A stretch of DNA of 64,000 bases from a virus: IMG/VR virus record IMGVR_UViG_3300027741_000024, positions 82,311-146,310 of that record. One strand, written 5' to 3'. This document shows, one piece after another, positions 14,012 to 64,000 of this stretch (position 1 is the first letter of the stretch; every line of letters starts with the position of its first letter). Below the pieces are notes generated by a model. It saw only the letters and a list, made by a program, of their open reading frames with translations. It made no database searches and was not told the DNA's origin. Position numbers and translations under genes: made by a program.

Positions 14012-16126
14012 ATGAAATTTAGCGATTTTCTGCGTGAGCAGAAAGAAAAACATGCTGTACTGGCATTCGGGCGTATGAACCCGATAACTTCTGGTCACGA
14101 AAAATTAGTCAACAAAGTCAAAGATATTGCCGATAAAGTCGGTGGTTCTCATCACATCGTTCTGTCACATTCACAAGACTCTAAAAAGAATCCTCTTACA
14201 GCAGCACAAAAAGTCAAGCATGCCAAACGTGCATTTCCCAATACTAATTTTACTGCCGCAAATAAAGATGCACCAACATTCTTTCATCACGCAGAGAAAC
14301 TTCATAAACAAGGTGTAACTCACCTTCATATGGTAGGTGGTTCTGATCGTACAGACGAGTACCATAAACTCTTACACAAGTATAATGGTACACATGAAGG
14401 TGCTCGGTTTAACTTCAAATCAATCAAAGTCCATTCTGCTGGTGAACGTGATCCTGATGCTGAAGGCACAACTGGTATTTCCGCAAGTAAGATGCGTGAA
14501 CATGCCACTAAAGGCAACTTCAAAGAATTCAAAAAAGGTGTACCATCTTCAATGTCTCATGAACATGCTAAACACATGTACAATGATGTTCGTAAAGGCA
14601 TGAATCTGCATGAGTCTATTCTAGCAGAAGGTGTACACGATAAAGCAATATTCAAAGCCGTATTTTTAGCAGGTGGTCCAGGTTCTGGTAAAGATTATGT
14701 TCTGTCAAATACACTTGACGGACACGGCATGATTGAAATCAATTCAGATAAAGCATTAGAGTATCTGATGGATAAAGAAAATCTGGATAAGACTATGCCA
14801 GATAACGAAGCAGGACAACGTAATGCAGTTCGCAAAAAGGCTAAAGATATTACAGAAATTCGTAATCGTCTAGCACTTCATGGTCGTAATGGCTTAATCA
14901 TTAATGGCACTGGTGCTGATCCAAAAGAATATGAAGAAATCAAAAAGAAACTAGAGAAGTTAGGTTACGATACTTCAATGATCATGGTTAATACCGATGA
15001 TGAAGTATCAAAAGCCAGAAATGTAGAACGTGGTCAACGTGGTGGTCGTACAGTGCCAGAAGAGATTCGTAAGAAAAAATGGGAAGAAGTACAGGCAGCA
15101 CGTGCTCAGTTTTCTAAAATATTTCGCAACAACTATATTGAATTTGATAACTCTGAAGATTTACGTAATGCATCACCAGATGTTGTCAAAGCAAAAAAAG
15201 AAGAGATGCAACAAATTTTCAAACAGATTCAAAAGTTTGTTGATACGCCTCCAAAAAGTGAACAATCAAAACATTGGATAGCATCAGAGTTAGGTCAAAA
15301 AGACACAGCACCAATTAGCAAAACCGCACAACCTAATACAAATGCAAAAACAAACGATGAGATGAATGCGATGGGTCTTGAGTATTATGGATTCGGTCGT
15401 TACGGTAAAAATGGTAAAGTTACTCATCGTTCAGTGCATGATCATTTAGTGCCAGTTGAGAAAATTGCTAAAAAAGTCAACGAAGCATTTGAAGATTTGT
15501 TTGAAGAAGAAGAAAAAAAGAAAAAACAAAAACTTATGTCGGATACAAATGGAAAACCAAAAGTGTTTCATTTTCGTATGTCTGCTGCAAAGGAAGCACA
15601 TCGTAACAATGGTATAGTTCACAAAGTTGGAAAAACGTATGTTGTTAAAATCAGAGAGGACTTAAATGAAATATCTTCACCAGATAATAATGCTATTGAA
15701 GCAATTTATGGACAAAATATCTCCACCCCCAGTGCAAAACAACTTGGCAAAGTTGGAACCAACTTTAGACCAAAAGGAAAACCTGCCCTTGACAAACCAG
15801 TCAGTGAGTCGGACAACGGAAGCGGAAGTGAAACCCGCCCGAAAATCACCCTCAACAAAATCAAAGAAAACTGGAACAAGAAAACCCAAGAGTCCATCGA
15901 CAAAGGGATAGAACCAGGTCTTTCAATGGCAAGTTCAGGTGAATCACCTGCACGTGATACTGGTGAGAAGTTAAGTAAGAGAGGTAAAGCAACACAAGTT
16001 ATACCATCATCAATCACTGAGTTGACTGGTGATGAAACAACTGCATCTATTGGTGATCAAAAAGAAGATGAGTTGAAGAAAAAAGGTATCTCACTTACAA
16101 CATTTAAAAAGAGAAACTTTGTATGA
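14012..16126 (+). CDS. bifunctional nucleotidyltransferase-P-loop kinase fusion, probably virion-associated
   Basis: 704 residues in three parts. Residues 15-165 are a cytidylyltransferase/NMN-adenylyltransferase fold: FGRMNPITSGH (19-29) is the HxGH-type site and GISASKMR (155-162) the ISxxxxR site. Residues 210-400 are a P-loop kinase with GGPGSGKDY (221-229), zeta-toxin-like in layout. The remaining 300 residues are Lys/Glu-rich and low complexity. The leader MKFSDFLREQ resembles the T4 capsid-targeting peptide with an L-x-E site. Reaction unknown: NAD or CDP-alditol metabolism are candidates. Confidence 0.75.
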   Translation: MKFSDFLREQKEKHAVLAFGRMNPITSGHEKLVNKVKDIADKVGGSHHIVLSHSQDSKKNPLTAAQKVKHAKRAFPNTNFTAANKDAPTFFHHAEKLHKQGVTHLHMVGGSDRTDEYHKLLHKYNGTHEGARFNFKSIKVHSAGERDPDAEGTTGISASKMREHATKGNFKEFKKGVPSSMSHEHAKHMYNDVRKGMNLHESILAEGVHDKAIFKAVFLAGGPGSGKDYVLSNTLDGHGMIEINSDKALEYLMDKENLDKTMPDNEAGQRNAVRKKAKDITEIRNRLALHGRNGLIINGTGADPKEYEEIKKKLEKLGYDTSMIMVNTDDEVSKARNVERGQRGGRTVPEEIRKKKWEEVQAARAQFSKIFRNNYIEFDNSEDLRNASPDVVKAKKEEMQQIFKQIQKFVDTPPKSEQSKHWIASELGQKDTAPISKTAQPNTNAKTNDEMNAMGLEYYGFGRYGKNGKVTHRSVHDHLVPVEKIAKKVNEAFEDLFEEEEKKKKQKLMSDTNGKPKVFHFRMSAAKEAHRNNGIVHKVGKTYVVKIREDLNEISSPDNNAIEAIYGQNISTPSAKQLGKVGTNFRPKGKPALDKPVSESDNGSGSETRPKITLNKIKENWNKKTQESIDKGIEPGLSMASSGESPARDTGEKLSKRGKATQVIPSSITELTGDETTASIGDQKEDELKKKGISLTTFKKRNFV

Positions 16127-37152: not shown

Positions 37153-37227
37153 CTGGCGTTAGTATAATGGATAATACAGAGGATTTCTACTCCTTTAATG
37201 TGGGTTCGATTCCTACACGCCGGACCA
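37153..37227 (+). tRNA. tRNA-Arg (anticodon TCT)
   Basis: 75 nt with encoded CCA. Acceptor CTGGCGT/ACGCCGG (7 bp with one GU), D-stem GTAT/ATAC, anticodon stem GAGGA/TCCTT with loop TTTCTAC (anticodon TCT), T-arm GTGGG-TTCGATT-CCTAC, discriminator A. It begins directly after the preceding stop codon. Reads AGA, a codon favoured in this AT-rich genome. Confidence 0.9.
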
Positions 37228-46270: not shown

Positions 46271-46358
46271 GGAGGATTGGCCGACCGGTTAAGGCAGCGG
46301 GTTGCTAACCCGTCATTCAGAAATGGGTGAGTAGGTTCAATTCCTACATCCTCCGCCA
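46271..46358 (+). tRNA. tRNA-Ser (anticodon GCT)
   Basis: 88 nt with CCA. Acceptor GGAGGAT/ATCCTCC, anticodon arm GCGGG-TTGCTAA-CCCGT, long class II variable arm, T-arm GTAGG-TTCAATT-CCTAC. Confidence 0.93.
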
Positions 46359-46559: not shown

Positions 46560-46634
46560 CTCGGTGTGGTGTAATTGGTAGCACGTAAATCTCCAAAATT
46601 TGTAGTTGCGGTTCAAATCCGTACATCGAGGCCA
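46560..46634 (+). tRNA. tRNA-Trp (anticodon CCA)
   Basis: 75 nt with encoded CCA. Acceptor CTCGGTG/CATCGAG, D-stem GTGT/GCAC, anticodon arm TAAAT-CTCCAAA-ATTTG, T-arm TGCGG-TTCAAAT-CCGTA, discriminator G. Confidence 0.9.
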
Positions 46635-48003: not shown

Positions 48004-48077
48004 GCGGGATTAGTTTAATGGTAAAACTTGAGATTTCCAATCTTACGTTGTCAGTTCGATTCTGGCATCCCGCTCCA
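48004..48077 (+). tRNA. tRNA-Gly (anticodon TCC)
   Basis: 74 nt with CCA. Acceptor GCGGGAT/ATCCCGC, D-stem GTTT/AAAC, anticodon arm TGAGA-TTTCCAA-TCTTA, discriminator T as usual for tRNA-Gly. Reads GGA. Confidence 0.92.
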
Positions 48078-61184: not shown

Positions 61185-61946
61185 ATGGCACGTAAAGCGG
61201 CACTAAAACAGGTCTATAGTAGTGAAGAATCGTTGGACTTTTCAAAACCAACTAATCGTTTGAAGTTAAGATTAGATGATATGAAAACATTTCAACCACT
61301 AACTGATAACCAGAATAAATTTTTTCAAGCATACAAACAAGGAGATTACTTTATAGCATTACATGGTGTTGCTGGAACAGGTAAAACATTTTCAGCATTA
61401 TATAAAGCTATTGAAGAAGTATTGGATAAAAGTAATACGTTTGAGAAAATTATAGTTGTGCGCTCAGCAGTGCAATCAAGAGAGATAGGACATCTACCGG
61501 GTTCTATAGATGAGAAGATGGATATCTATCAGCAACCATATCGTCAAATATGCGAAACACTTTTTGGTCGCAAAGATGCATGGGATAGATTAGAGGAACA
61601 AGGTCATATTGAATTCATTTCAACATCATTTATTCGTGGTATGTCATTTGATAATGCCATTATTATTGTTGATGAAATGCAGAATATGACCTTTGAAGAA
61701 ATTGATACTGTAATGACTAGGGTAGGTAATCAATCAAAGATTATCTGGTGTGGTGATTACAGGCAGACTGATTTGAACAAGAAGAAAAACGATGTATCGG
61801 GTCTATTGAAATTCTTTGACATTGCATACCATATGGGTGCATTCACTAGAATTGAATTTACACCAGATGATATCGTTCGTTCAAGTTTAGTTAAAGATTA
61901 CATTTTAGCAAAATTGAAGTTTGAGGATTTAGCAGAAAAGGCATAA
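61185..61946 (+). CDS. phoH: PhoH-like ATPase
   Basis: 253 residues. Walker A GVAGTGKT (61-68), IIIVDEMQNM as Walker B, and CGDYRQTDL match PhoH (RNA-linked P-loop ATPase). Common in marine phages; biological role debated. One-base overlap with the next gene. Confidence 0.92.
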   Translation: MARKAALKQVYSSEESLDFSKPTNRLKLRLDDMKTFQPLTDNQNKFFQAYKQGDYFIALHGVAGTGKTFSALYKAIEEVLDKSNTFEKIIVVRSAVQSREIGHLPGSIDEKMDIYQQPYRQICETLFGRKDAWDRLEEQGHIEFISTSFIRGMSFDNAIIIVDEMQNMTFEEIDTVMTRVGNQSKIIWCGDYRQTDLNKKKNDVSGLLKFFDIAYHMGAFTRIEFTPDDIVRSSLVKDYILAKLKFEDLAEKA

Positions 61947-62611
61947 TGAAAATATTTAATCATGTGAAGTTGCCGCAACTTGACTTTGACTTGAAAGCAG
62001 AAACAACCGAAAGTGGTAGACTCTATGCTACTCCCACAGGAGAAAAGTATAAGTCTATCACTACGGTACTTTCAAATCATAGCAAGCAAGCAATCATGGA
62101 ATGGCGTGATCGTGTTGGTGCTGAAGAGGCAAACAAGATATCAACCAAAGCGGCAAATCGTGGTACCAAAATTCACAAAATCTGCGAAGATTATATCAAC
62201 AACGAAATCTCTGAGATGAAGATGAAAACGTTGATGCCGAATTTAAAGGAACTATTCTTTAAGATCAAACCAATTATTGATGAGAAACTTGGTGATGTAT
62301 ATTCTCAAGAACAGGCATTATATTCACACCAATTGAGAGTTGCCGGCAGAGTAGACTTGATCGGTATGTGGAATGGTAAGTTATCGGTAATTGACTTTAA
62401 GACTTCTACCAAACAAAAAGAGGAATCGTACATTCAAAATTACTTCATGCAATGTACCGCATACGCTTTAATGTTTTCAGAGTTGACAGGAATGTGGATT
62501 GATGATATAGTAGTATTAATTGCTACTGAAGAAGGTGAATCGCAGGTATTTGAACGCCAGATCCATGACTATCGGAAACCTCTAATGAATTATATTGATA
62601 AATATGCCTAA
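61946..62611 (+). CDS. RecB-like PD-(D/E)XK nuclease
   Basis: 221 residues. EQALYSHQLRVAGRVDLIG then LSVIDFKTSTKQKEESYIQNYFMQCTAYA gives the E...GxxD...DxK nuclease core and QxxxY motif of RecB/Cas4-like exonucleases. Used for DNA repair or host DNA breakdown. Confidence 0.85.
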   Translation: MKIFNHVKLPQLDFDLKAETTESGRLYATPTGEKYKSITTVLSNHSKQAIMEWRDRVGAEEANKISTKAANRGTKIHKICEDYINNEISEMKMKTLMPNLKELFFKIKPIIDEKLGDVYSQEQALYSHQLRVAGRVDLIGMWNGKLSVIDFKTSTKQKEESYIQNYFMQCTAYALMFSELTGMWIDDIVVLIATEEGESQVFERQIHDYRKPLMNYIDKYA

Positions 62612-62624
62612 AATAGGAGGTATT

Positions 62625-63149
62625 ATGTTATCACTCAAACAATATATGGTGGAAGGTAATCCACTGGCAAGACTACATAAACACGCACAAGAAGGACGCC
62701 ATTATGCTGTATTATCAGCACATCGTCCAGAAGGTGAAGCAACACCAGAACAGAACAAAATAAGGCACAACGAATTGAAGGATAAACTTACTTCGCTAGG
62801 TTATGCTCACAAAGAAGTAGAAGGACACTATGAGGGTGGTAAAGAAAAATCAATTATGGTACATGCTAGAGGTACAGGTGATGAACATGGTAAAACATTG
62901 TTGCATGATGTCAAGAAACTGGGAAAGCATTATAACCAAGATTCCATCTTCCATCATGACACAAAATCTGCTAAATTACATGGAACAAATGCGACAGGTT
63001 TTCCAGGTAAAGACAAAGAAGAGGGCGTTGGTAAAACCAAGTTCAATAAACCTCATGCGCCATTTCAGACTGAGACTAAACCAAAGTCTGATAAACCATT
63101 GAAAGCAGGAAGAACTAGCAAAGGGTCGGCAAGATTTACGACAGAGTGA
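62625..63149 (+). CDS. DUF3293-like protein with capsid-targeting-like leader
   Basis: 174 residues from ATG 62625 with AGGAGG upstream. MLSLKQYMVEG resembles the other leader peptides. HYAVLSAHRPEGEATPEQNKIRHNELKDKL and GKEKSIMVHA recall DUF3293-type proteins. The C-terminal 60 residues are basic and disordered. Confidence 0.6.
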   Translation: MLSLKQYMVEGNPLARLHKHAQEGRHYAVLSAHRPEGEATPEQNKIRHNELKDKLTSLGYAHKEVEGHYEGGKEKSIMVHARGTGDEHGKTLLHDVKKLGKHYNQDSIFHHDTKSAKLHGTNATGFPGKDKEEGVGKTKFNKPHAPFQTETKPKSDKPLKAGRTSKGSARFTTE

Positions 63150-63323: not shown

Positions 63324-63423
63324 AACAACACTCGATCATTTTGAACGTTGGTTTGATATAGCGTTACGATTTGGTTGGGCATTGTTTATCTATGTTGTGG
63401 TTACTGGCCATTACATTAGATAG
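63301..63423 (+). CDS. small single-TM protein
   Basis: 40 residues; one membrane helix (LFIYVVVTG) at the C-terminus after an amphipathic start. Ends ten bases before the tmRNA helices. Confidence 0.5.
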   Translation: MEQKKEYKTTLDHFERWFDIALRFGWALFIYVVVTGHYIR

Positions 63424-63432
63424 TAAAGAATT

Positions 63433-63692
63433 GTTGTAATTCCTTCAAAGTAAAGGCATTCTGGACGAGGGTTCGATTCCCTCCATCTCCACCAAAAGCA
63501 TATTGTATAGTGTGTTTCTGATGGGGATGACCTGGTTTCGACAGGGTGAAATAGCAGAGAAGGCAACACGATAGGCGATGATCGTTAATCAAGCAAAACT
63601 ACAAATGCAAATGACGCATTTTATGGTGAAGATCGCCTAGCAGCGTAACTCACTTGGGGTTTAGGGAGTGTCCTTATTAACCAATCACTCCC
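63433..63692 (+). ncRNA. ssrA: circularly permuted (two-piece) tmRNA
   Basis: The acceptor piece comes first: P2 3' strand, T-arm GAGGG-TTCGATT-CCCTC (63467-63483), CATCTCC, discriminator A and CCA (63492-63494). After a 28-base intervening segment the coding piece starts at 63523 with GGGGATG, then the TGGTTTCGAC tmRNA signature. GGGGATG pairs with CATCTCC, giving G3-U70, the alanine identity pair. CAGGGTG/CATTCTG and GAAGG/CCTTC (plus CAAC/GTTG) rebuild helix P2 across the two pieces. The tag ORF resumes at GCA 63607 and reads ANDAFYGEDRLAA, stop TAA 63646-63648. TAGGCGAT/ATCGCCTA forms P5 around it. Confidence 0.92.
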
Positions 63693-63709
63693 ACCAAATT
63701 CTATACATT

Positions 63710-64000
63710 ATGAAAATCTATAAGTCAAATTATCGTAGTCATTGGATTTCTCCATATGTTATATTGGAGAAAGTTTTCTTTTGGCGTGAGATTGATTATG
63801 ATGAACCACTCATTGAAAAACTTTCCAACTTCCTCAATCCTTTTTCTGTAGCATGGATGAATTTTCTTGACTTTGTGCATCCACAAATCAATTACATAAA
63901 GATTGATCGTTGGGATACATGGTCAATGGATCATACATTAGCCGATATTATTCTACCAATGTTGAAGCAAATGCGTGATACCAAACATGGTTCACCTCTT
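63710..64000 (+). CDS. conserved T4-like protein (partial, runs off the window)
   Basis: 97 codons from ATG 63710 with no stop before the end. KIYKSNYRSHWISPYVILEKVFFWREID, FLDFVHPQINYIKID, DTWSMDHTLADIILPMLKQMRDTKHGSP is a highly conserved hypothetical of T4-like phages. Function unknown. Confidence 0.8.
   Translation, partial: MKIYKSNYRSHWISPYVILEKVFFWREIDYDEPLIEKLSNFLNPFSVAWMNFLDFVHPQINYIKIDRWDTWSMDHTLADIILPMLKQMRDTKHGSPL

Follow-up and report, generated by a model that had tools for sequence, protein, structure and literature searches.

The window, which comprises the last 64 kb of a viral record of 146,310 bases, contains a complete circularly permuted tmRNA gene at about positions 63432–63692, recognized by both ARAGORN and Rfam. 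A capsid gene of the T4 Gp23 type (470 bits) on the same record marks it as that of a T4-like phage. The conserved upstream neighbor of the tmRNA gene is an exonuclease gene (phrog_298; 61946–62611, plus strand), whose product shares 41% identity with the PDDEXK nuclease that precedes ssrA in the phage Melnitz. Between the exonuclease and the tmRNA lies an ORF with a weak match to phrog_2226, a SAM-dependent methyltransferase (62595–63149, plus strand). The window also contains four phage tRNA genes, Arg-TCT (37153–37227), Ser-GCT (46271–46358), Trp-CCA (46560–46634) and Gly-TCC (48004–48077), and a long ORF (14012–16126) in which a cytidyltransferase-like N-terminus is joined to a kinase/ATPase-like part.

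ARAGORN labels the gene ‘tmRNA*’ and reads its tag as ANDAFYGEDRLAA. The match to beta_tmRNA (RF01850) extends with flanks over 63381–63716 of the plus strand and over model positions 1–331 (172.8 bits, E 8.7e-54), and that to tmRNA_permuted (RF04321) over 63432–63648 (162.8 bits, E 1.2e-32). Both are above the gathering cut-offs, 84 for RF01850 and 47 for RF04321, and the window gene is the sole match of RF01850 in the whole record.

The sequence, ARAGORN and Rfam agree on the order of the parts, all on the plus strand: the acceptor piece is upstream of the coding piece, with an intervening sequence (IVS) between them. The tRNA-like 3′ (acceptor) piece, at about 63432–63494, contains a P2 strand, the T arm GAGGG-TTCGATT-CCCTC (63467–63483, with stem strands GAGGG at 63467–63471 and CCCTC at 63479–63483), the 3′ acceptor strand CATCTCC (63484–63490, U70 being 63488), A73 (63491) and an encoded CCA (63492–63494). 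The IVS is a 28-nt plain hairpin (63495–63522) that prolongs the acceptor stem and would be removed in processing. The 5′ (coding) piece up to the resume codon (63523–63606) comprises the 5′ acceptor strand GGGGATG (63523–63529, G3 being 63525), the GGTTTCGAC motif, the other P2 strand and the first pseudoknot. It is followed by the tag reading frame, running from GCA to GCG at 63607–63645 with the stop codon TAA at 63646–63648, and by the 3′ pseudoknot region GGGAGTG...CACTCCC (63649–63692), placed by the Rfam alignment. An earlier note, made from the sequence alone, had described these parts, and the inner ends it gave, 63494 and 63523, are correct on the sequence. The acceptor strands pair across the two pieces in 7/7 positions, including the G3(63525)-U70(63488) pair that the note had named. 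In the Rfam alignment the P2 helix, which it had rebuilt, is formed with one non-standard pair, and the pseudoknot stems CGAU/AUCG and GGGAGU/CACUCC are formed as well. The segment from acceptor strand through IVS to acceptor strand folds as a precursor hairpin of −18.8 kcal/mol (z −4.63 versus shuffles).

That a strong promoter could not be detected close to the tmRNA gene counts against its function. The T4 late promoter TATAAATA is absent near it and shows no excess across the window. No terminator was found at the gene. The terminator-like hairpin at the 3′ end of the RF01850 model, its last, aligns to the window gene with several non-standard pairs; this hairpin is a feature of the gene end and has no part in the function of the mature RNA.

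Starting from the exonuclease upstream of the window tmRNA, 80 related loci were collected. Of the 56 loci L006–L060 and L083, whose exonucleases are 55–100% identical to that of the window, all but one (55/56) have a permuted tmRNA according to ARAGORN and the covariance models. Further contigs brought the set to 94 distinct phage tmRNAs in which the acceptor stem could be parsed, mostly from metagenome contigs. The G3-U70 pair is kept in all 94, together with G1-C, G2-C and pair 7. Pair 4 is G-C in 55 and C-G in 39, pair 5 occurs as A-U, C-G, G-C or U-A and pair 6 as U-A, A-U or C-G. Since the parse itself demanded pairing, the TTCGA anchor served in a control to delimit the 5′ strand; among 90 tmRNAs the own acceptor strand pairs in 7/7 positions in 90/90, as against 33/630 for strands of other classes. 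The T stems covary in the relatives too. The invariant G3-U70 pair and the covarying pairs next to it show that the structure is under selection in the phage relatives. Covariation of the pairing partners in related phages, which the earlier note had required, is therefore present. The tRNA-like piece ends in ACTG and not in ACCA in three loci (L007, L011 and L119), in which the CCA would therefore need post-transcriptional completion.

The same data bear on whether the gene might be a functionless passenger or remnant acquired from a host. Such an origin would be in line with the frequent integration of phages and islands at tmRNA genes, pieces of which they carry along (PMC9004378). The gene is complete, occurs in 55/56 syntenic loci with strong compensatory changes, has a tag type that no surveyed bacterium shares and lies among T4-like genes, so that a passenger is hardly credible here. 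Covariance models, covariation, synteny and the T4-like capsid gene all uphold the identification of a phage-encoded permuted tmRNA.

The best explanation for the gene anatomy, the covariation, the conservation and the distribution of the tags is that the window gene encodes a functional two-piece tmRNA of a T4-like phage, which rescues ribosomes with the help of host factors. This reading is very probable; that the RNA is expressed, processed and charged, that it tags proteins for proteolysis and that the phage profits from it, as outlined here, is inferred. The route has been reviewed for two-piece tmRNAs in general and leads from the precursor through processing, pairing of the pieces and charging with alanine to SmpB-dependent entry, tagging and proteolysis (PMC3985003); according to work cited in that review, the two-piece tmRNA of Caulobacter functions in trans-translation. 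The phage RNA would be transcribed as a single hairpin-joined precursor, from which tRNA-processing enzymes of the host would excise the 28-nt IVS; RNase P probably cuts at 63523 and a 3′ tRNA nuclease (tRNase Z) at 63494. The two resulting pieces would stay joined through pairing in the acceptor stem and P2. The RNA would be charged by host AlaRS by way of G3-U70 and carried by host SmpB and EF-Tu to ribosomes stuck on broken mRNAs. No match to an SmpB or an SspB gene was found on the 146,310-base record, which may be incomplete; host factors would therefore be required. Translation would resume at GCA 63607, giving a product that ends in (A)ANDAFYGEDRLAA, which host ClpXP/ClpAP would degrade through the C-terminal LAA with SspB assisting through AND..Y. 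The likely benefit is that the infected cell has sufficient ribosome rescue and clean-up without relying on the host copy. The phage copy would keep rescue running as broken mRNAs accumulate or when the copy of the host comes under attack. The suggestion in the earlier note, that the phage takes over ribosome rescue or redirects tagged proteins after decay of the host mRNA, is a reasonable one.

The opposite role, that of an inhibitor or decoy of host trans-translation, has a precedent in the mycobacteriophage DS6A, which carries an RNA with tmRNA domains, a similar molecule being an inhibitor of tmRNA (PMC4131195). Phage tmRNA-like RNAs therefore need not perform rescue. A decoy would have no need of a resume codon, an in-frame tag and a stop codon, yet these are retained in the relatives read by ARAGORN, which makes this role very improbable for the window gene. 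A tag frame with an alanine resume codon, a stop codon and a hydrophobic Ala-Ala end is present in the window gene and in its relatives.

The tag of the window gene contains 13 residues and retains both the AND start and the C-terminal LAA, as the earlier note had read it. A degenerate DNA pattern for this tag type, AND-x-(F/Y)-YGE(D/E)RLAA, matched 55 viral contigs, and the same 13-residue pattern had no match in 84,980 bacterial and archaeal species genomes. LAA or a variant of it is retained at the tag end in the relatives, and 91/92 AN-type phage tags have Tyr or Phe at the place of Tyr7 of AANDENY, the SspB position. In the 13-residue form the parts bound by SspB and by ClpX are three residues further apart. 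Bacterial beta-type tags that read as AND-type have 10 residues, and SspB genes were found in four bacteria with a permuted tmRNA. Among 42 distinct tmRNAs from the window and the loci L001–L085, selected by neither tag nor cassette, the tag has 10 residues in 21 and 13 residues in 18. Closely similar tmRNA bodies switch between the two forms: in 17 pairs the body and spacer are alike and the tags differ in length (10 versus 13 residues), and therefore the tag block has been exchanged. The 13-residue tag type is not reported in the openly accessible literature and goes beyond the published picture of phage tmRNAs. It makes testable the question of why lytic phages retain a rescue RNA with tags unused by bacteria.

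One answer would be that the choice of tag is itself the main benefit, the phage tmRNA outcompeting that of the host and the longer phage-type tag changing the delivery of products to the proteases. The restriction of the tag type to viral contigs and the 17 like-bodied pairs are in line with it. However, roughly half of the phages with this locus have tags of 10 residues, and the retention of LAA and AND..Y may leave the fate of the tagged proteins unchanged. Other bacterial lineages, too, have tags longer than 10 residues, which also counts against this answer, and we regard it as unlikely. In its favor, engineered tags with extra spacing exist, and in a benchmark an extra SENY linker left the KM with SspB unchanged and the substrate was removed faster (PMC8512704). 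That the longer tag alters proteolysis is accordingly a hypothesis.

Among the 94 relatives the length of the IVS is at most 33 nt in 20, 34–100 nt in 69 and longer in five, and in 109 pairs of tmRNAs the spacer differs in length with both halves more than 90% identical. The longer IVSs mostly retain the closing hairpin, to which differing apical modules are added. Recurring RNA cassettes of this kind are E, A and B, exemplified by L018, L023 and L019; further types are seen in L013/L145, L029/L059 and L113/L124. The modules A, E and B were probed across 2.9 million viral contigs, with probes that needed exact cores. They were found in 30 (A), 23 (E) and 15 (B) stretches, and 68/68 are in tmRNA spacers, nearly all placed inside ARAGORN calls and a few by the flanking CCACC...GATGGG or an adjoining tag. 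Module E, with 87 nt of which 27 are fixed by the probe, has a mean identity of 99% and a minimum of 97% across 14 tmRNAs. These 14 have 10 tags and 5 acceptor stems, and their tRNA-like halves average 83% identity and their coding pieces 79%. For several pairs of phages sharing a cassette the flanking 2.5 kb are without similarity or are about 70% identical over short stretches, and the exonucleases of these phages are 44–79% identical to that of the window. A cassette 97–100% identical between phages with dissimilar flanks points to recent exchange or to strong selection on a supposed waste RNA.

Module A shows compensatory changes in its stems, with 5 pairs changed on both sides and the loop fixed by the probe. 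The fold of cassette E (z −1.38) is no different from those of shuffled sequences. Neither module A nor module E turned up among 50,697 named phage records, and an Rfam search with one cassette at a permissive E-value returned tmRNA and chance matches only. Two processes, alone or together, would account for the cassette pattern: exchange by recombination at the IVS flanks, which are conserved, and strong selection acting on the module. The discriminator pairs with the spacer in phage tmRNA precursors, and according to the abstract of one study, pairing of a leader with the 3′ RCCA inhibits an RNase P binding step (PMC9433436); on these grounds the spacer could set the pace of maturation.

Some of the spacers contain reading frames. 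Frames of 34–61 codons behind Shine-Dalgarno-like sites are present in the IVSs of L009 (7745–7885), L139 (1029–1211), L263 (745–846) and Melnitz (L273, 10097–10258); by tblastn these four are mutually unrelated, and the predicted proteins of L139 and L009 had no match in named phages. The IVS of L046 has a predicted frame of 71 codons without a clear Shine-Dalgarno site. The permuted tmRNA at L061:6720-7353, with the tag ANDEEYLLAA, has a spacer of ~450 nt with a predicted frame of 155 codons, the predicted product of which is a homolog of staphylococcal nuclease (SNase PF00565, 33.7 bits against a cut-off of 21; phrog_452, E 7e-32). In L046, L061 and Melnitz the frame extends into the coding piece.

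The earlier note had overlooked the spacer, which is a short hairpin in the window and a site of cargo in relatives. These spacers raise the possibility that the locus is retained as much for IVS cargo, that is, for small structured RNAs or small proteins freed by processing, as for rescue, the window gene being a cargo-free allele. The probed cassettes, found only in tmRNA IVSs and near-identical between otherwise dissimilar phages, agree with this, as do the ORFs with Shine-Dalgarno-like sites. Since 20/94 IVSs, that of the window included, are short plain hairpins, and neutral recombination at the conserved flanks would give the same pattern, we consider it improbable as the reason for keeping the gene, and rescue remains the preferred function. 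A broader proposal covers a large group of T4-like phages. In these the IVS would be a dedicated cargo site for small structured RNA cassettes and small protein genes, a nuclease among them. The cassettes and genes would move between phages as units with the closing hairpin, and tRNA-processing enzymes would release them as products of their own; the tmRNA, for its part, would write a phage-only, independently swappable tag. This proposal is tentative, being somewhat short of probable. It makes testable whether an excised tmRNA spacer carries and releases other RNAs or proteins. The IVS cassettes are not reported in the openly accessible literature and extend beyond the published picture of phage tmRNAs.

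The window gene is similar to the tmRNA of the Methylophilales phage Melnitz (MZ577097), a two-piece phage tmRNA published in 2022, when 53 were suggested in a phage database (PMC9004378). Both are permuted and encoded by T4-like phages downstream of related exonucleases, with small ORFs between the nuclease and the tmRNA in Melnitz, and the locus is the same. As phage two-piece tmRNAs have been published from the same gene neighborhood, and Rfam already includes a permuted tmRNA model, the window gene belongs to a kind already known. The Melnitz tmRNA differs from that of the window in being alpha-type (RF01849) with the tag ANDNYVPVDYALAA, the window gene being beta-type. Unlike the 28-nt spacer of the window, the IVS of Melnitz is long; the 54-codon reading frame within it has a GGAG site and is missing from the annotation. 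Melnitz also has a glutamine riboswitch, which is located downstream of the tmRNA; a position inside the IVS was ruled out.

The permuted tmRNAs of betaproteobacteria (RF01850; L153–L161 and L188–L193) share with the window gene the model, the order of the parts and the short IVS, and are about 67–83% identical to it in the two pieces. They differ in being encoded on a bacterial chromosome and, where ARAGORN reads an AND-type tag, in its length of 10 residues (ANDERFALAA, ANDESYALAA, ANDENFALAA and others). In the bacterial order of G017, the RF01850 cut-off was exceeded in 4/150 sampled genomes and the other genomes read have a one-piece tmRNA; therefore, the permuted form is scattered in that order. 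A tRNA-like pattern had matches in two MAGs titled Rhodocyclaceae and in a third titled Accumulibacter, and a marker of the RuMP pathway (methylotrophy) was not above its cut-off in the permuted-tmRNA genome G070. Insertions in the IVS are described for bacterial or archaeal permuted tmRNAs: one such IVS contains a tRNA-Ala gene, and a second has a repetitive element (PMC11915505). As presented in the accessible part of that source, these are single curiosities, in contrast to the phage spacers, without recurring cassettes, protein genes or phages.

Permuted tmRNAs are also present in the cultured phages Bhz51 and DLP6 of Stenotrophomonas, BUCT628 of Acinetobacter, XacN1 of Xanthomonas and SM1 of Pseudomonas. 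Like the window gene these have their own tags, of 12–14 residues, and some have long IVS hairpins; they differ in belonging to other phage groups (45–385 kb). The four bacterial genera are known for one-piece tmRNA. Among the five phages the tmRNA is annotated only in Bhz51 and is unannotated in DLP6, BUCT628, XacN1 and SM1 (L218, L219, L220 and L221). Phage tmRNAs were previously known, yet little studied.
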